From: Hyphomicrobiales bacterium
GTDB taxonomy: Bacteria; Pseudomonadota; Alphaproteobacteria; Rhizobiales; Aestuariivirgaceae
Reading direction: 5' to 3'
Length of the DNA: 64,000 bases
NCBI GenBank assembly: GCA_025363755.1
Contig: JANYLQ010000029.1
Location: 186,001-250,000, forward strand
A program made the translations under genes and the position numbers. Under the pieces are notes generated by a model. It made no database searches and was not told the origin of the DNA. It worked only from the letters and a program-made list of their open reading frames with translations. Position 1 is the stretch's first letter, and every line of letters begins with the position of its first letter. Below are positions 3,068 through 10,572 of this stretch, in pieces.

Positions 3068-4039
3068 TTGGTTCTTTCACTTCACGATAAATGGATTTGG
3101 GATTTTTGGCTAGTGAGGGATCATGGCGACTGGCATATCTATTTCCTGCAAGCTGATAACACATTAGCTGATGCTGAAATGCGCCACCGCAATGTGACGC
3201 AAGGACATGCGGTTTCCAACGACCTTGTGAACTGGAACCATTTAGGCACATGTTTTAAACCTTCCAAGGGGCCAGCCTTTGATGATTGGACAACGTGGAC
3301 TGGCTCAGTGGTCAAAGGGCCAGATGAAACTTGGCATTTATTTTATACGGGCACACCGCATGCTGAAGGAGGCGTGAGGCAGTGCATTGGGCATGCCACT
3401 TCCCAGGACATGCATTCATGGGTGCGGGTGGGCAATGGTTTGTGTCTCGATCTTGCTGGGCCAAACGCAAAATATTACGAAGAATACACGCCGGGCCATT
3501 GGAGTGACCGTGCAATGCGCGACCCTTGGCTGATCCAGAATCCAGATGGTGAAGGCTGGCTGATGTATTTTACCGCGCGCGTGCCGGACCGTACGGAACC
3601 CAATGCGGGAGGTGCAGTTGGTTTTGCAACATCGCCGGATTTAATGAATTGGACTTTGCAGAAACCAATTTATGACGGTGGAGATTTTGGCCAATTGGAA
3701 GTGCCGCAAGTTTTTAAATTTGGCAAGAAGTGGTACATGACGTTTTGCACGGCGGCCGAACATTGGTCGGAAGGTTACCGCTCGAGGAACAAAGAGACAC
3801 CTGTTACAGGTTCGCATTATTTGATTGCAAATAGCCACCTTGGGCCATGGACGGCACCAACGAATAAATTTCTTGATGGTCGCAATCCTTGCGAGCGTTA
3901 TGCGGGCAAGATTGTGGAGAAGGACGGCGAGCTGTTTATCATGGGGTTTCTGTATTATGACATCGCAGGGAATTTTATCGGAAAGGTCAGCGATCCGGTT
4001 CCGCTTGCGGTAGATGATGACGGTCTGCTTTCGCTTTAG
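3068..4039 (+). CDS. GH32/GH68-like five-bladed propeller glycosidase
   Basis: 323 residues with no signal peptide, so cytoplasmic. Three motifs fit the clan of fructan- and sucrose-active enzymes: WDFW with Asp12 as candidate nucleophile, RDP at 151-153 as transition-state stabiliser, and EVPQ with Glu211 as candidate acid/base. WTGS at 77-80 resembles the clan's WSGS motif. The start must be TTG at 3068: a stop lies upstream in frame, GGAG is eight bases before, and the next ATG would remove WDFW. It could equally be a GH43-like or uncharacterised GH32-clan enzyme. It lies 91 bases after the LacI gene and may be its target. Its stop overlaps the convergent glycerate kinase gene by four bases. 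Confidence 0.78.
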   Translation: MVLSLHDKWIWDFWLVRDHGDWHIYFLQADNTLADAEMRHRNVTQGHAVSNDLVNWNHLGTCFKPSKGPAFDDWTTWTGSVVKGPDETWHLFYTGTPHAEGGVRQCIGHATSQDMHSWVRVGNGLCLDLAGPNAKYYEEYTPGHWSDRAMRDPWLIQNPDGEGWLMYFTARVPDRTEPNAGGAVGFATSPDLMNWTLQKPIYDGGDFGQLEVPQVFKFGKKWYMTFCTAAEHWSEGYRSRNKETPVTGSHYLIANSHLGPWTAPTNKFLDGRNPCERYAGKIVEKDGELFIMGFLYYDIAGNFIGKVSDPVPLAVDDDGLLSL

Positions 4040-5304
4040 TCTACAAGGATCACGCGAAAGTCGTTGACGTTGGTCAAAGTTGGGCCAGTGATAATTTGTG
4101 AATTGATGCTCTGAAAAAAGTTATGCGCATCATTTTTGCTGAGTGAGGCCCATGGATCGATTTTCAACCTGCGTGCCTCGCCCAGACTCGTCGGCGTGAT
4201 GTATGCGCCTGCTACTTCGCGCGCGCCATCAACACCATCGGTATCGCCAGCAAGCGCGTGAATTCCTTCTGCGCCACCCAGTTTGATTGCAAGCGACAAT
4301 AGAAATTCAACATTCCGTCCCCCTGCTCCGTTGCCCTTAACAGTAACAGTGGTCTCGCCGCCCGAGATGATGGCGCAGGGTGTTTTGATTGGTTGGCCAA
4401 AGCGCTTGGCTTGCATTGCAATGCCGGCCATCATAATGCCAACTTCGCGGGCTTCGCCTTCGATCGCATCACCTAAAATGATTGGCTCATAACCTGATGC
4501 CTTGGCAATTGCTGCTGCGGCTTCAAGCGATTTTTGTGGTGAGGCGATGCAAGTGGCTTTGGTGTTTGCCAATCTAGGATCATCAGGTTTTGGTGTTTCA
4601 TCTTGCGCTTCGGCCAAATGTTTTGTGACCGATGCCGGCACGTCGATTTCATATTTTGCGATGATCTGGCGGGCTTCAGCAAAAGTCGTTGAATCGGCTA
4701 CAGTTGGGCCTGATGCGACGGAGCCTAAATCATCACCAGGCACATCGGAAATTACTAATGTGACGACACGAGCCGGGAATGCCGCAACGGCCAATCTGCC
4801 ACCTTTGATGGCCGATAGGTGTTTGCGCACGCAATTCATTTCACCAATCGGTGCACCTGATTTCAGAAGCGCTTTATTCACTGCACGCTTGTCTTCAACG
4901 CTGATGCCACTGGCGGGTAGGCTGAGCAAAGCCGAGCCGCCGCCAGAAATCAGCGCAACTATCAAATCGTCTTGGGTCAATCCATCAAGCATTTTTAACA
5001 TGCGAGCGGCGGCGCGCGTTCCTGCACCATCGGGAACGGGGTGGGCGGCTTCAACGATTTCGATATTTTTGCAAATGGCGCCGTGACCATAACGAGTGAC
5101 CACAAGCCCTTCGAGCGGGGCATGCCAGTTATTCTCAAACACTTGCGCCATGGCCGCCGAGGCTTTGCCTGCGCCCACAATAATGGTGCGGCCTTTTGGA
5201 AGAGATGGCATGTGAGCGGGTATGCAGTTTAACGGCAATGCGGTTTTCACGGCGGCATCAAACATGGCGCGCATCAGTTGGATTTGTTTTTCAGAATTTT
5301 GCAT
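4036..5304 (-). CDS. Glycerate 2-kinase, GckA/TtuD (MOFRL) family
   Basis: 422 residues from the ATG at 5304. The glycine-rich LISGGGSALLSLP, the KHLSAIKGGRLA segment and DVPGDDLGSVASGPT are signatures of the two-domain glycerate kinase/MOFRL family, often mislabelled hydroxypyruvate reductase. It phosphorylates D-glycerate to 2-phosphoglycerate. In organisms using the serine cycle or glyoxylate-derived glycerate, this feeds C1 or C2 carbon into central metabolism, which would suit the methylamine and formate genes elsewhere in the window. Its 5' end lies 42 bases from the divergent M20 gene. The start is uncertain because no strong ribosome site precedes 5304 or the next ATG at 5274. Confidence 0.88.
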   Translation of the reverse strand: MQNSEKQIQLMRAMFDAAVKTALPLNCIPAHMPSLPKGRTIIVGAGKASAAMAQVFENNWHAPLEGLVVTRYGHGAICKNIEIVEAAHPVPDGAGTRAAARMLKMLDGLTQDDLIVALISGGGSALLSLPASGISVEDKRAVNKALLKSGAPIGEMNCVRKHLSAIKGGRLAVAAFPARVVTLVISDVPGDDLGSVASGPTVADSTTFAEARQIIAKYEIDVPASVTKHLAEAQDETPKPDDPRLANTKATCIASPQKSLEAAAAIAKASGYEPIILGDAIEGEAREVGIMMAGIAMQAKRFGQPIKTPCAIISGGETTVTVKGNGAGGRNVEFLLSLAIKLGGAEGIHALAGDTDGVDGAREVAGAYITPTSLGEARRLKIDPWASLSKNDAHNFFQSINSQIITGPTLTNVNDFRVILVD

Positions 5305-5346
5305 TCTGGCACTGTACTTGATTGTGAATTTTTGACAATGAGGGGC

Positions 5347-6498
5347 ATGACCCAATCTCTCGCGATTTTAGAAAAACTGATTTCATTTCCAACCGTCAGC
5401 AAAGACAGCAATCTGGCTTTAACTGATTATGTGCAGCAGTTCCTCAGCGCATTGGGCATCCAATCGTCAATTGTCTACAATGAAGAAAAGACCAAGGCAA
5501 ATTTATGGGCTGCGGTTGGGCCTGCGAATATGGGTGGCGTGGCACTTTCAGCGCACACTGATGTGGTGCCCGTGATCGGACAGAACTGGAGTTCTGATCC
5601 ATTTGTGATGGCGCGGCGCGACGGCAATTTATACGGTCGCGGAACGGCGGATATGAAAGGATTTATCGCTTGCTGTTTGGCGATGGTGGCGCGTATTGAC
5701 CAGTCCAAATTGAAGACGCCTCTTCATTTTGCGTTTTCATATGATGAAGAAATTGGCTGCATCGGCGTAAGGCGATTGTTGGATATGTTAAAGACTTTAC
5801 CATTTCGCCCGCGCTTTTGCATCGTGGGCGAACCTACCATGTTACAAGTTGTAACAGCGCATAAGGGAAAGCTGGGTTTTCGCGTAACGGCGCATGGGCT
5901 GGAGGCGCACTCCAGTTTGGCGCCCATAGGGGCCAATGCGATTTATATGGCCTGCGATTTGATTTCCGAAGTTCGTCGCATTCAAGATGATCTGGCAGTA
6001 CATGGTGCTCGCGATGGGGATTATGAGGTGGCGTACACGACGCTTCATGTGGGGAAAATGGCGGGCGGTGTGGCGATGAATATCGTTCCTAATGATGCCA
6101 GCTTTGATTTTGAAATTCGCTATCTGCCGCAGGATGATCAGCATGCCATTGTTACACGGATCAAGCAGGCAGCAGAGGATGTGGCCAAGCGCTATCGCGG
6201 TGTTTTTGCTGATGCACGATTTGTGTTCGCAGATTTGCAGAGCTATCCGGCGCTTGATACTCCCGTCGATAGTGAAGTTGTAAATTTCGTCCGCGCACTA
6301 ACGGGTGGGAACTCAACGGGCAAGATTACGTTTGGCACTGAAGGTGGTTTATTTCAAAAAGAGCTTGGTATTCCTGCTGTGGTTTGCGGCCCGGGGAATA
6401 TTGCTGTGGCACATAAGCCTGATGAATATGTTTCTGAAGCACAAATGGCGCTTTGCGATGCGATGTTAGATAGGTTGGTGGAGCGGCTTTCGGTTTAA
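5347..6498 (+). CDS. M20-family deacylase resembling acetylornithine deacetylase (ArgE)
   Basis: 383 residues. The metal-site motifs of the M20A family are present: ALSAHTDVVPV, GRGTADMKGF, the YDEE general base/metal pair, GEPT, and a C-terminal His within GNIAVAHKPDEY. The closest subfamily I recognise is ArgE, which removes acetyl from N-acetylornithine, but M20 paralogues also hydrolyse other N-acyl amino acids. The gene is convergent with, and overlaps by four bases, the DUF1028/RidA/monooxygenase operon, so a catabolic role in that pathway is possible. Two close ATGs (5338 and 5347) could start it; GAGGGG lies just before the second. Confidence 0.84.
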   Translation: MTQSLAILEKLISFPTVSKDSNLALTDYVQQFLSALGIQSSIVYNEEKTKANLWAAVGPANMGGVALSAHTDVVPVIGQNWSSDPFVMARRDGNLYGRGTADMKGFIACCLAMVARIDQSKLKTPLHFAFSYDEEIGCIGVRRLLDMLKTLPFRPRFCIVGEPTMLQVVTAHKGKLGFRVTAHGLEAHSSLAPIGANAIYMACDLISEVRRIQDDLAVHGARDGDYEVAYTTLHVGKMAGGVAMNIVPNDASFDFEIRYLPQDDQHAIVTRIKQAAEDVAKRYRGVFADARFVFADLQSYPALDTPVDSEVVNFVRALTGGNSTGKITFGTEGGLFQKELGIPAVVCGPGNIAVAHKPDEYVSEAQMALCDAMLDRLVERLSV

Positions 6499-7172
6499 GG
6501 ATCGCCCGGCACGCCGTAGCTGGGGGCTTGTGTTGGATCAAGGGCGCGTTGGAGGTAAGCACTCATTTGCGGTTGGTATTCAGTCCACAGCTTACGCAAG
6601 AACGCCACTGGGTTTTCGTCATCCCAATCAACTCGCAAATTTACAAGTGGAAAGTCTTGTTCATGATAGACGAGAAGGCAAGCGGAATGCACAGGCCCTT
6701 CCTCACCGCCAGAAGTAATCCCCGCTTCTAATGCACGGAGCAGTCGTTCAGCCAAATGTTGATCCACGTTGGCAGCAAAAGCATCGGTCATCACTTTTGG
6801 TAGCTCTGATGACTTCAATAGATTGCCCGCGGCAACGCAATTTTTCTGTTCGCTCACAGAATGTGTGCCGAGGATTTCGTCACCCGAGTAAGACGCTGAA
6901 TTTCCGAATTGATCTACAGCAGTGAGCTGGCGGAAATTTACATTCTTGCGATTGCGCGTGACCGCCATGATGGCTTCGCCTGCGCTCAAACCGTCTTGCA
7001 TGTAATCAAGCAACAAAGGACCAAGCCGAGGGTCGGTTACATTCTGCGTTGAAACTGCACCAACACCGACACGCGCGTGTGGACAGCGCGCGCCGACAGC
7101 GATCGAAGAGGTGGTGATGGCAACACCGAAGGCTCCAGTTTTGGCACAGCGGCCTGCAATTGAGAATGTCAT
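6495..7172 (-). CDS. DUF1028 family protein, probable Ntn-hydrolase
   Basis: 225 residues. It starts MTFSIAGR, with Thr2 available as N-terminal nucleophile after Met removal, and continues GAFGVAITTSS and VGVGAVSTQNVTDPRLGP, typical of DUF1028. The family is thought to have the Ntn-hydrolase fold, but I know of no firmly assigned reaction. The start codon overlaps the RidA stop (ATGA), so it is the last gene of the reductase-monooxygenase-RidA operon. By context it may hydrolyse an amide, or process an imine- or lactam-type product. Its stop overlaps that of the convergent M20 gene. Confidence 0.85.
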   Translation of the reverse strand: MTFSIAGRCAKTGAFGVAITTSSIAVGARCPHARVGVGAVSTQNVTDPRLGPLLLDYMQDGLSAGEAIMAVTRNRKNVNFRQLTAVDQFGNSASYSGDEILGTHSVSEQKNCVAAGNLLKSSELPKVMTDAFAANVDQHLAERLLRALEAGITSGGEEGPVHSACLLVYHEQDFPLVNLRVDWDDENPVAFLRKLWTEYQPQMSAYLQRALDPTQAPSYGVPGDP

Positions 7173-7591
7173 TTCGGATCGGGTATCACAGCGGTGACTT
7201 CGATTTCGACTAGCCATTCTGGCCGCGCCAAAGCCGTGATCACCAAGCCCGTTGAACAGGGAAACACGCCTTTCAGCCATTTGCCCATTTCACGGTAAAC
7301 ATCTTGGCGGTAACGCACATCAGTTAGATAAACCACAATGCGACAGATGTGATCCATATGGCCACCTGACTCCTCCATCAGCAATTTAATGTTGGCCATG
7401 GTCTTGGCGGTTTGAGCTGTTGCGTCACCAACATGCAAGCTTTCACGTGAGTCTAAATCCTGGGAGACTTGGCCACGCACAAACACCATCGTGCCACGCG
7501 CAACAACTGCCTGGCATAGGTCGTTGTCGAGTTTTTGTTCGGGATATGTGTCCTTCGTGTTGAAGGAGCGAATGCGGGTGTGGGCTGTCAT
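7169..7591 (-). CDS. RidA/YjgF/Rut-C family protein
   Basis: 140 residues. The family core is visible: VFVRGQVSQDLDSRE near the start, ANIKLLMEESGGHMDHICRIVVYLTD in the middle, and a C-terminal ARPEWLVEIEVTAVI. The Arg and Glu of ARPEWLVEIE are the residues that bind carboxylate and activate water in imine deaminases. RidA proteins hydrolyse reactive enamine/imine intermediates. It is the third gene of a tight operon, three bases after the monooxygenase stop and overlapping DUF1028, which suggests a dedicated role in one catabolic pathway rather than general housekeeping. Confidence 0.92.
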   Translation of the reverse strand: MTAHTRIRSFNTKDTYPEQKLDNDLCQAVVARGTMVFVRGQVSQDLDSRESLHVGDATAQTAKTMANIKLLMEESGGHMDHICRIVVYLTDVRYRQDVYREMGKWLKGVFPCSTGLVITALARPEWLVEIEVTAVIPDPK

Positions 7592-7594
7592 GAT

Positions 7595-9061
7595 TTACTG
7601 CGCTGCTTTCTTGGTTTCGCTCCAGATGCGGTCTGACATTCCGCCCGCTTTTTGGGCGAAGGACATGGCTTGGTTCCAATCGAAGTTGCGATAGACTGCC
7701 GCGGACTGTGCGAAGGGGGCGGATTGAGCGAACAGTTGGAAGGTAAGGCGGTGGCCTGCATAATCGGAGTTTAATAAATCGCGCGCAAGGGCCAGTAATT
7801 TCCGCCTGTCTTCGGCCAACCATTGGTCGTTGATGGTGTAATATTTATCCATCCATTTTTTGGTTTCCGGGTGGTCAAACACTGCTGAGTCTGGCGTTAC
7901 ACAAATCTGACCACCACAAAGTTCACGGGCAATGTGCATCATTTTTGGCAAGTTGTTGAGAGCATGCACACGGCCTGTCATTAGCAAGGATTGGTTGGGC
8001 ATCAACAGACCATTCGGGCTTTTCTCGGCGGTGTAGATCGAAGCGGTGAGATGCGCATTGATGCCTTCGCGCCAGACTGCGAGCTCGGAAAGCTTTTCCT
8101 GCACAGCTTGTTGCTTATCAAGCCCGGTTTGTTTGGCATTCCACATGGCCGCGCCAATAATGAGATCAGCATAGGAAAGCGTGCGCTGAACAAATGGAAA
8201 AGCCGAATAACGGTGCAGTGTTTGGCGAATAAAGGCTGCGGCTTTGGTGTGTTGATAGAACAACACATCCTCCCACGGAATCAGAACATTATCCAAAATC
8301 ATGATGGTGTCGACTTCGTCGAACTTGTTCGAGAGTGGATAATCACGCGCAGGTGCGCGATTTGTGAAACCGGTGCGGCAGATATGTTTCACACCCGGCG
8401 CATTCATGTGCACAATGCAGCCCAGTGCATAACTCGAAAGTTTACTATCGCCCCAATTGGCAATGGTAGGTTTTAGAAAAGCTTGATTGGCATAGGCCGC
8501 GGCGGTTTCATACTTAGCACCTCGGATGATGATACCAGCATCGGTTTCTTTGACCACATGCACCAGCATATCTGGATCTTGGTCTTGCGGTGGTTTGGAA
8601 CGATCACCCTTGGGGTCTGTGTTGGCCGATACGTGAAAGGGGTCATCATGCAGCGCCTTCATGATATGGCGTTCAATATTGGAGGCAAAGCGCGGATCGA
8701 TTTCATTGAGAATATCTTTACCATCCCAAAGTGACCACATTTCGCCGATGGTTTCGTCGCCCATGCGGGTGACGACACCGCCAATATCTTTCATCACCGT
8801 GTCAACGGCATTGCGCTTATCGTGCCAATCTTGCTGAACGCGTGGCAGTTTGTTGCCGATCGCAAAACGTTCCCCGCCTTCCTCATAGGTCATCACATTC
8901 TGCTTGGCCTTTTCGTGCTGCATGTCATAGATGCGAGCGCGGATATCTATAGCTGGTTTGAACAACGGATGGCGGGTTACATCCTTTACGCGTTCGCCGT
9001 TGATCCAAACTTCACGGTCATCTCTGATTGACTCGCGATATTGTTCGCCTGTCCTAATCAT
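7595..9061 (-). CDS. HpaB-type FADH2-dependent monooxygenase
   Basis: 488 residues, the usual size of the two-component 4-hydroxyphenylacetate 3-monooxygenase family, whose fold resembles acyl-CoA dehydrogenase. The N-terminus (RTGEQYRESIRDDREVWINGERV) is the family hallmark. Internal segments such as FTNRAPARDYPLS and LIPWEDVLFY fit the flavin-binding middle domain. The start is ATG 9061, directly after an in-frame GTG, with GAGGA upstream. The flavin reductase gene nine bases upstream would supply FADH2. The substrate need not be 4-hydroxyphenylacetate: the partners RidA and DUF1028 suggest a nitrogen-containing, possibly heterocyclic, substrate. The related radical enzyme 4-hydroxybutyryl-CoA dehydratase is unlikely given the reductase partner. 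Confidence 0.9.
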   Translation of the reverse strand: MIRTGEQYRESIRDDREVWINGERVKDVTRHPLFKPAIDIRARIYDMQHEKAKQNVMTYEEGGERFAIGNKLPRVQQDWHDKRNAVDTVMKDIGGVVTRMGDETIGEMWSLWDGKDILNEIDPRFASNIERHIMKALHDDPFHVSANTDPKGDRSKPPQDQDPDMLVHVVKETDAGIIIRGAKYETAAAYANQAFLKPTIANWGDSKLSSYALGCIVHMNAPGVKHICRTGFTNRAPARDYPLSNKFDEVDTIMILDNVLIPWEDVLFYQHTKAAAFIRQTLHRYSAFPFVQRTLSYADLIIGAAMWNAKQTGLDKQQAVQEKLSELAVWREGINAHLTASIYTAEKSPNGLLMPNQSLLMTGRVHALNNLPKMMHIARELCGGQICVTPDSAVFDHPETKKWMDKYYTINDQWLAEDRRKLLALARDLLNSDYAGHRLTFQLFAQSAPFAQSAAVYRNFDWNQAMSFAQKAGGMSDRIWSETKKAAQ

Positions 9062-9070
9062 CACTGTTCC

Positions 9071-9592
9071 TCATGTCTTCGTCATGCGACCATAGTTGTG
9101 GTTGGAATAAACCATGGGCTCGGTATCGCCGCGCAATGCCGAGATCACGCGGCCCAAGAATATGCGGTGGGTGCCCGCGTCATGATAGCTTTCGAGTTCG
9201 CATTCGAAACTCGCGGTAGCAGTTTTCAGGATGGGAAGACCAAGTGCTTGGCCTTCTGTCCACCCATGTTGGTCAAAATCATAGTGTTTACCACCTACCG
9301 CGCGCCCTGCAAAAACCTGTGCAATCTCTTGGCTCTCCACATTCAGTATGTTGATCGCAAAACGATGATTTCGATTAATCGCCGAAACGGCAACATTTTT
9401 ACGATTTAAGCAGGCCAATAAAATTGGCGGCTCGGCGGAAACCGAGGTGACCGCACTCACTGTGAGGCCGAATTTTCCAGCTGGCCCATTTGTAGTCACT
9501 ATGCTCACACCATTGGCCAAAGCTGCCATGGCGTCAACAAAGCGCTCTTTTGTTTCGGAGGGGAACGAAGGTGGAATGATTTGCATGTTCAT
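9071..9592 (-). CDS. Flavin reductase, HpaC-like
   Basis: 173 residues, one split-barrel flavin reductase domain. Seen: MAALANGVSIVTTNGPAG, the GLTVSAVTSVSAEPPILLACLNR core that contacts flavin, and a C-terminal HRIFLGRVISA. It would reduce FMN or FAD with NAD(P)H for the monooxygenase encoded nine bases downstream. It is first in a four-gene operon reading leftward and divergent from the LysR gene at 9664. The ATG at 9592 lacks a clear ribosome site; a second ATG two codons on is possible. Confidence 0.91.
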   Translation of the reverse strand: MNMQIIPPSFPSETKERFVDAMAALANGVSIVTTNGPAGKFGLTVSAVTSVSAEPPILLACLNRKNVAVSAINRNHRFAINILNVESQEIAQVFAGRAVGGKHYDFDQHGWTEGQALGLPILKTATASFECELESYHDAGTHRIFLGRVISALRGDTEPMVYSNHNYGRMTKT

Positions 9593-9650
9593 GGTGCTTT
9601 ACATCGCATAGATCTTTGATTAGAAAAAATAGATAATTATTAGGCAGAGT

Positions 9651-9665
9651 ATAGTTTTAAACTAT
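9651..9665. promoter_or_regulatory. LysR-type T-N11-A operator overlapping the lysR start codon
   Basis: ATAGTTTTAAACTAT is a perfect inverted repeat of seven bases around one central base and contains the T-N11-A pattern recognised by LysR-type regulators. It lies in the 71-base divergent gap and its last two bases are the AT of the regulator's ATG. Binding there should block the regulator's own expression while allowing control of the reductase-monooxygenase operon. Confidence 0.68.
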
Positions 9666-10572
9666 GTTAAAATTTACGCTTCGACAATTGGAATATGCTG
9701 TTCAAACTGCTGATAGCGGATCAGTTGCCGCTGCGGCAGAAATATTACGAGTTGCGCAACCTTCCATCTCGGCCGCGCTGAAAAAGCTTGAAGACACCAT
9801 TGGTATGCAGATCTTTATTCGACATCATGCGCAGGGTCTCACACCGACGTCTCGTGGTAATACATTTTTGGCGGATGCGCGGCGACTGCTGACCCAGAGT
9901 GAGGAATTGGCACGCCAATCTGACTCGGAAATAGGGCCGCTCAAAGGGCGTTTGCAGGTCGGAAGTTTTGTCACTTTAGCACCCACCTACGCACCAATTC
10001 TTATAAGCAAATTCAATGCATTATACCCTAATGTTGAGATTATTCTCGGAGAAGGTGTTCAAAGCGAATTGTTGAGCGGCTTGAGGAATGGGCAGCATGA
10101 TCTGGCTCTCCTTTACGATGTTGATCTGCCCGCAGATGTTGAAGCGTTGGAAGTGGTGTCACTTAAACCTTACGTGTTATTATCGGCATCGCACAAGCTT
10201 GCACGTTTCAAAAAAATATCGCTTTTTAATTTGGTAAATGATAAACTTATCCTGCTCGACATCCAGCCTAGCCGAACCTATTTTTTACGGCTGTTAGAAG
10301 CACAAGGTGTAAAGCCAATCATCGGGTTTTCATCTGCCTCTCTCGAACTTGTGCGCGGCATGGTAGCGCAGGGGTTGGGGTATTCGCTTTTGATCACGCG
10401 GCCCGCGGGCGATTTGTCTTATGATGGTGAGAAACTCAGCGTTCACGAAATAGCAGGGCAAGCTGAACGCGGGGTGATCGCCATTGCACATCTGAAAACC
10501 GTGCGTCAGACGCGGGTTGCGCAGGTCTTTGAAAAATTCTGTATTGATTATTTCAAGACTGTGCGAAAATGA
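9664..10572 (+). CDS. LysR-family regulator of the monooxygenase operon
   Basis: 302 residues, the normal length. The N-terminal winged helix-turn-helix is clear (LRQLEYAVQTADSGSVAAAA then VAQPSISAALKKLEDTIG), followed by a substrate-binding domain starting at about GPLKGRLQVGSF. It is divergent from the flavin reductase gene, the standard arrangement for a LysR activator and its target operon, and a palindrome at 9651-9665 overlaps its start codon. There is little ribosome-site sequence upstream, so initiation may be weak. The inducer is unknown but probably the substrate or an intermediate of the adjacent pathway. pepN follows after 28 bases and may share the transcript. Confidence 0.92.
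   Translation: MLKFTLRQLEYAVQTADSGSVAAAAEILRVAQPSISAALKKLEDTIGMQIFIRHHAQGLTPTSRGNTFLADARRLLTQSEELARQSDSEIGPLKGRLQVGSFVTLAPTYAPILISKFNALYPNVEIILGEGVQSELLSGLRNGQHDLALLYDVDLPADVEALEVVSLKPYVLLSASHKLARFKKISLFNLVNDKLILLDIQPSRTYFLRLLEAQGVKPIIGFSSASLELVRGMVAQGLGYSLLITRPAGDLSYDGEKLSVHEIAGQAERGVIAIAHLKTVRQTRVAQVFEKFCIDYFKTVRK

Follow-up and report, generated by a model that had tools for sequence, protein, structure and literature searches.

What does a compact cluster of oxygenase and hydrolase genes in a Hyphomicrobiales bacterium act on? The genes lie in a 64,000-nucleotide stretch of GenBank assembly GCA_025363755.1 (contig JANYLQ010000029.1, positions 186,001 to 250,000), hereafter called the window, to whose first letter our coordinates refer. 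Open reading frame (ORF) calls place a flavin reductase (FlvR), an HpaB-fold oxygenase, a RidA family protein and a DUF1028 protein in this order in a leftward unit, next to a divergent LysR regulator and a convergent M20 deacylase. We find that RidA, DUF1028 and M20 correspond to HinL, HinH and HinG, respectively, of the published histamine/imidazoleacetate pathway, and the LysR protein probably to HinK. The cluster probably encodes a variant lower histamine (imidazole-4-acetate) pathway, with an HpaB-fold oxygenase in the place of HinF. Its features are as follows.

9071-9592, minus strand: flavin reductase (FlvR); PF01613 Flavin_Reduct, 130 bits against a cut-off of 27
7595-9064, minus strand: HpaB-fold oxygenase; PF11794 HpaB_N, 277 against 35 bits, and PF03241 HpaB, 200 against 25
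7169-7591, minus strand: RidA family protein, HinL-type; PF01042 Ribonuc_L-PSP, 57.7 bits against a cut-off of 27.3
6495-7172, minus strand: DUF1028 protein, HinH-type; PF06267, 210 bits against a cut-off of 26.2
5347-6498 (start ATG 5347 or 5338), plus strand: M20 ArgE-like deacylase, HinG-type, convergent; PF01546 M20, 123 bits against a cut-off of 24.6
9664-10572, plus strand: LysR regulator, HinK-like, divergent; PF03466 LysR_substrate, 111 bits against a cut-off of 28, and PF00126
9652-9664, no strand: possible LysR box, a perfect T-N11-A dyad by motif match only, whose last base is also the first of the LysR start codon

The leftward genes are separated by 6 nt (FlvR-HpaB) and 3 nt (HpaB-RidA) or overlap by 4 nt (ATGA, RidA/DUF1028). 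The divergent LysR gene lies 71 bp from this unit, and the DUF1028 and M20 ends overlap tail to tail by 4 nt. HpaB starts at GTG 9064 or ATG 9061, and its homologues align from residue 2. A sequence-only reading had described four tightly packed leftward genes with a divergent LysR and a convergent M20 gene, and this arrangement is borne out by the ORFs and Pfam matches. It had named the genes correctly but placed them all within 7169-10572, a span that leaves out DUF1028. The layout is not due to chance, because an HpaB orthologue and its neighbours recur across genomes of the order. A promoter scan returned 10 candidates (4.9 expected), none of them inside the FlvR/LysR divergent region, and a terminator scan gave a count at chance level.

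The HpaB-fold oxygenase and its recurrence

The oxygenase shares its Pfam families, the pairing with a reductase, and Arg100 with HpaBC, the 4-hydroxyphenylacetate 3-monooxygenase, but it has other neighbours and stays far under the cut-offs of two HpaB equivalogs (230.3 of 480.2 bits for HpaB-1, and 171.1 of 885.2 bits). An excerpt of PMC10537072 gives Arg100, Tyr104 and His142 as the catalytic set of FAD-dependent HpaB, with His142 deprotonating the phenol. At these positions a phmmer alignment places Arg100, Glu104 and Ser146 in the window protein. Across an alignment of the clade (55 rows, at least two of which repeat a place), Arg and Glu are present in 53 of 53 rows with data and Ser in 55 of 55, and three more distant relatives share Arg/Glu/Ser. 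Throughout the clade, Glu and Ser thus occupy the positions of the Tyr and His that activate phenol, which makes a phenol an unlikely substrate. FlvR scores below the cut-offs of the RutF and HpaC models, and we propose that it supplies reduced flavin to HpaB.

Among 297 genomes of the order, 37 have an HpaB orthologue (at least 65% identity; range 65-87%), the next matches being at 42% identity and below; across the phylum, 9 of 398 genomes have one at E<=1e-100. Both counts include the genome of the window. Labels assigned at set identity thresholds around the other 36 orthologues, several of whose stretches end at contig ends, comprise RidA (31), DUF1028 (28), LysR (25), ArgE (20) and flavin reductase (18). 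RidA is located away from HpaB in some carriers. HpaB or a relative also occurs in 16 plasmid records, 13 of them at 60-80% identity, with carriers that include Paracoccus, Aminobacter, Caballeronia, Halomonas and, at 55%, Bacillus badius. Eleven of these records were examined, three being unannotated at that place. HpaB, RidA and DUF1028 occur together in seven of the eight annotated ones, including CP021373, whose DUF1028 gene is annotated 'FimA' and was recognised by sequence; in the eighth, from Pseudohalocynthiibacter, HpaB lies ~6 kb from RidA and DUF1028. The sequence-only reading had made its proposal depend on co-occurrence of the genes elsewhere, which is wide in genomes of the order and on plasmids. 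HpaB-like plasmid proteins are annotated as 4-hydroxyphenylacetate 3-hydroxylases in their records.

Correspondence with the hinFLHG module

According to PMC8231116, hinFLHG converts imidazole-4-acetate to aspartate, and its regulator HinK, a LysR protein, responds to imidazole-4-acetate. Table 3 of PMC6467879 lists HinF as an FAD-monooxygenase (EC 1.14.13.5), HinL as an enamine deaminase, HinH as an amidase, HinG as an amidase (EC 3.5.1.8) and HinI as an aspartate ammonia-lyase. A scan of named genomes with a HinF-like alignment gave 563 confirmed stretches, of which the best 80 were retained, from Paraburkholderia, Caballeronia, Burkholderia, Pandoraea, Trinickia, Zobellella and Pseudomonas, including P. 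putida. When open frames are ordered by their upstream end, 65 of these 80 loci show the label order HinF-RidA-DUF1028-ArgE, as in the published hinFLHG (in one of them, L172, ArgE lies ~4 kb further on), and DUF1028 therefore is HinH by position. Of the 15 loci outside this count, L117, L157, L161 and L171 differ solely by the sorting, a RidA label is missing from L149, and the others are truncated or rearranged. Some HinF loci (e.g. L142, L163 and L171) also have labels for LysR, aldehyde dehydrogenase and aminotransferase nearby.

The HinL-, HinH- and HinG-type genes are likewise adjacent in the window. Compared with four Pseudomonas HinF loci, the window proteins are 59-61% (RidA), 51-52% (DUF1028) and 46-48% (ArgE) identical, and LysR is 41-45% identical to a LysR protein near HinF-RidA-DUF1028-ArgE in three of the four, none being found in the fourth. 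An aspartase-like (HinI) protein is encoded in the same genome away from the cluster (54% match at C37:323176). The system resembles hinFLHG/HinK of Pseudomonas putida U and P. aeruginosa in its RidA, DUF1028, M20 and HinK-like LysR proteins, in the aspartase-like protein, and in having a flavin-dependent oxygenase as the proposed first step. It differs in that HpaB and a flavin reductase stand for HinF, M20 is convergent rather than in the operon, and genes for histamine dehydrogenase and a HinD-like protein were not found in the genome. The sequence-only reading had suggested an undescribed pathway. This no longer holds for RidA, DUF1028 and M20, which match HinL, HinH and HinG, nor probably for the regulator, which resembles HinK; the oxygenase alone seems undescribed. 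The reading's pairing of a two-component flavin-dependent oxygenase with RidA, an N-terminal nucleophile (Ntn)-type DUF1028 enzyme and an M20 deacylase is supported, as is its N-containing substrate, most likely an N-containing ring.

We modelled DUF1028 from a 30-row alignment (29 of the 79 DUF1028 rows of the named loci, and the window), obtaining a predicted local distance difference test score (pLDDT) of 79. The model matches 2imh (Z 28.7), taspase-1 (Z 17) and HslV/proteasome beta chains (Z ~11). Several rows of the structural alignments begin by pairing model residue 2 with chain residue 1, which in the HslV/proteasome rows we take to be the catalytic Thr1. Thr2 of DUF1028 is invariant, in 43 of 43 and in 30 of 30 alignment rows. 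DUF1028 thus likely has an Ntn-hydrolase fold with Thr2 as nucleophile, and the predicted fold and Thr2 fit an amidase. The closest structural match, SPO2555 of Silicibacter pomeroyi (PDB ID 2imh, Pfam DUF1028), shares family and fold (82 bits) but is only 28% identical to the window protein over the structural alignment.

The best solved chains for LysR are 3fzv (253 bits) and 6m5f (252 bits), both labelled 'Probable transcriptional regulator'; these chains may be HinK. A single-sequence structure model of LysR was unusable (pLDDT 37), and an alignment of 28 of the 48 LysR rows of the named loci with the window had no further use.

HpaB and HinF in shared gene contexts

The 297 genomes of the order include 37 with HpaB, 38 with HinF (at least 53% identity) and 67 with the RidA type (E<=1e-28). 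RidA is accompanied by HpaB or HinF in 64 of its 67 genomes, and genomes with HpaB or HinF contain RidA in 64 of 66 cases. The 67 RidA carriers divide into 28 with HpaB only, 28 with HinF only, 8 with both and 3 with neither (Fisher p 1.7e-8 for exclusion; the Fisher tests treat genomes as independent, with phylogeny uncorrected, so that significance is overstated). HinF is absent from 28 of the 37 HpaB genomes. For HinF, up to five candidates per genome were scored, with the threshold placed by eye between 53% and 49%; the weakest HinF retained (G154, 53%) is without RidA. The HinF search in HpaB carriers covered 36 genomes out of 39 HpaB matches, with G027 and G245 (42% and 38% to HpaB, respectively) left out and the genome of the window searched separately. 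In the three RidA carriers with neither oxygenase (G002, G126 and G251), no DUF1028 of the window type lies beside RidA (in G251 a DUF1028 label of 38% is found at a distance of 8 kb), so that RidA may have another role in these genomes.

Two kinds of otherwise alike clusters contain HpaB in the place of HinF. A Rieske-LysR-ABC context is found with HinF in 14 loci of Paraburkholderia, Caballeronia and Pandoraea (L094-L107), and with FlvR-HpaB in Caballeronia SBC2 (L078) and G516 (L209). The LysR and Rieske proteins of these two strains are 80-81% identical to those of the HinF carrier Caballeronia M1242 (81% and 80%, respectively, for SBC2). A GhrA-DHQase-GST-QOR-ABC context holds a HinF-like gene (65%) on a Klebsiella plasmid, and HpaB-FlvR in Aminobacter, in Halomonas, where the HpaB match is split in two, and in G340, where the stretch covered shows no RidA or DUF1028.

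In a third kind of cluster, HpaB lies beside histamine dehydrogenase without HinF. G010 has HpaB, FlvR, RidA, DUF1028, ArgE and LysR together with a histamine dehydrogenase that matches 6de6 with 1182 bits, and a search of its genome gave no HinF orthologue, only a 42% relative. The HinF version of this context is present in G105 and G229, with a histamine-dehydrogenase-like gene (76%), HinF, RidA, DUF1028, aldehyde dehydrogenase, LysR and ArgE. Parasedimentitalea and Pseudohalocynthiibacter carry both oxygenases, and the histamine dehydrogenase of the latter matches 6de6 with 1265 bits.

We calculated a RidA+DUF1028 tree of 89 rows, comprising the window and those of 129 loci with both genes, minus every second HinF locus. 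The tree contains four changes between HpaB and HinF labels, with 24 of 86 inner branches weak, and three of the five rows labelled 'none' do have a HinF-like gene. The grouping in this sequence tree is mostly coherent with some interleaving, and does not indicate frequent switching.

Several other clusters of this type were observed. In the genus of the window, G264, which is without HpaB, has HinF, RidA, DUF1028, LysR, ArgE and a histamine-dehydrogenase-like gene (76%) in one locus (L215), where the HinF match has an internal stop. A HinF-type cluster of Paraburkholderia tropica (L116) includes a choline-dehydrogenase-like (GMC) oxidoreductase and an aldehyde dehydrogenase, which suggests an alcohol precursor. 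RidA-DUF1028-ArgE clusters also occur on plasmids of Enterobacteria (L080 and L228 from Klebsiella pneumoniae, L079 from E. coli), and Klebsiella accounts for 105 of the 250 plasmid records that match DUF1028 at E<=1e-20. A wider view of the plasmid clusters located a HinF-like gene (60-65%) in one record each of Klebsiella, Roseivivax and Roseinatronobacter; the Klebsiella plasmid so viewed has in addition an ABC transporter and an alpha-hydroxy acid oxidase.

Proposed route and competing explanations

In the proposed route, FlvR would make reduced flavin, which HpaB would use with O2 to add oxygen to the ring of imidazole-4-acetate or of a closely related imidazole acid, the role that HinF, an unrelated FAD oxidoreductase, has elsewhere. 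The DUF1028 Ntn hydrolase (HinH) and RidA (HinL), in an order that we leave flexible, would open the oxidised ring and hydrolyse the imine to give N-formylaspartate. M20 (HinG) would deformylate this product to aspartate, the aspartase encoded elsewhere in the genome would convert aspartate to fumarate, and the divergent HinK-like LysR would turn the cluster on. The proposal builds on gene content, homology, shared context and co-occurrence, together with the changed active site and the Ntn fold of the model; the functions of RidA, DUF1028 and M20 are taken over from the published Hin labels. HpaB would then perform the step of HinF on imidazole-4-acetate or a relative, and which of these two it prefers is our main doubt.

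Several observations weigh against this assignment. HinF, histamine dehydrogenase and a HinD-like aldehyde dehydrogenase were not found in the genome of the window (best-scoring matches 27% over part of the protein, 28%, and 38% with the next at 40%, respectively). The upper-pathway search covered histamine dehydrogenase and HinD, with HinC not searched, and the organism would therefore need to import the acid or obtain it by another route; direct use of imidazole acids may be its way. The identities to the Pseudomonas proteins are moderate, and no HpaB-fold enzyme is known to act on imidazoles. M20 passes two cut-offs, that of NF005710 and that of the acetylornithine deacetylase equivalog TIGR01892 (367 of 297.7 bits). 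ArgE of the Caballeronia M1242 HinF cluster likewise passes them (414 bits for TIGR01892), and the model thus does not separate the two M20 types. Across all 297 genomes, HpaB and HinF overlap in nine, slightly above chance (p 0.03), because both accompany the RidA module. The two genes lie close together in G228, Parasedimentitalea, Pseudohalocynthiibacter and G467, and separate HinF copies in G079, G038 and G114 have a HinK-like LysR alongside. From this coexistence and these regulators, HpaB may do a different, related job.

Such a parallel pathway, with the same RidA-DUF1028-ArgE module and an HpaB that acts on another N-heteroarene (an N-methylated imidazole acid, imidazole lactate or another ring acid), is unlikely but deserves serious attention. 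Beyond the nine double carriers among the 37 HpaB genomes, the four with neighbouring copies and the three with a HinK-like LysR, it would account for the separate HinF beside a histamine-dehydrogenase-like gene (55%) in G068 (L197), and for the histamine dehydrogenase and HinD-like genes not found in the genome of the window. It would also suit two clusters from the genus of the window (L032 and L033), in which Rieske-type and HDAC-like genes that the window copy lacks lie inside the HpaB cluster; these may prepare N-methylated or N-acetylated substrates. Yet none of the eight loci with HinF apart from HpaB in one genome (L197-L204, two of them on short contigs) has a RidA or DUF1028 label beside HinF. 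One module therefore probably serves both oxygenases, which leaves room for different substrates. In one double carrier (G037) the HinF copy has an internal stop. The near exclusion in RidA carriers and the same place in alike clusters suggest the same step for both enzymes.

Other explanations fare less well. A wholly undescribed N-heterocycle pathway unrelated to imidazoles would agree with the open-licence literature that we searched, in which we found no paper joining these genes, and with a substrate that is only predicted; the shared module, the HinK-like regulator and the histamine dehydrogenase link make it very improbable. The homarine (N-methylpicolinate) operon hom, described in 2026, was considered as well, but the neighbourhoods pointed to histamine instead. 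It reportedly comprises five enzymes and a regulator in marine bacteria, SAR11 among them, and this gene number equals the number here. The module is, however, common to HinF and histamine-dehydrogenase clusters, and the nine phylum matches all come from genomes of at least 3.2 Mb, none SAR11-sized (SAR11 presence in the sample is uncertain), so that we give homarine hardly any credence. A search of the literature for trigonelline-type two-component oxygenases gave nothing useful.

We regard as least probable of all a cluster in which an ordinary hydroxylase of 4-hydroxyphenylacetate or phenol lies among unrelated genes. The HpaB fold, the HpaC-like reductase and the retained Arg100 speak for it, the equivalog scores and the clade-wide Glu and Ser against it. 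The RidA type is present in 36 of the 37 HpaB genomes, and the genome of the window contains no HpaD above the cut-off (best 23.6 of 321.4 bits), which leaves without support the standard hydroxylase with a complete hpa pathway that the sequence-only reading had named as its counter-case. This enzyme and the Rut pyrimidine pathway are both rejected on model scores and residues. RutC-like RidA and RutF-like reductase are similar to the window proteins at the superfamily level, but these reach only 39.7 of 169.1 bits (RutC) and 117.2 of 254.75 bits (RutF), and the oxygenase is HpaB-fold. RutA is a luciferase-like oxygenase. The earlier remark that the enzymes differ from those of Rut is thus correct.

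Returning to the imidazole route, we lean towards a broader view, with somewhat less assurance than for the cluster itself. An FADH2-dependent HpaB-fold clade (Arg100/Glu104/Ser146) may have moved from phenols to imidazoles, repeatedly replacing HinF or being replaced by it before one ring-opening module, in three contexts and in alpha-, beta- and gammaproteobacteria, with DUF1028 as the Ntn amidohydrolase of the module. HpaB and HinF have no NCBIfam family in common. The oxygenase exchange and the DUF1028 role are likely the new part, with the remaining pathway known; the word DUF1028 was not found in the open-licence literature searched. If true, a pathway step would be assigned to a domain of unknown function, and a substrate class to a conserved HpaB-like branch now annotated as 4-hydroxyphenylacetate 3-hydroxylases. 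It would also be a case of unrelated enzymes being exchanged within one catabolic route, and would predict imidazole acid use in bacteria where hinF searches miss the pathway.

Further genes were noted around these clusters. HutD recurs near HpaB in L071, L072, L074, L217 and L219, and some of these loci contain an adenylyltransferase or FAD-synthetase-like gene; neither is present in the window. A glycerate 2-kinase-like (MOFRL) gene (4036-5355) is divergent from M20 in the window, and its longest ORF overlaps the M20 start.

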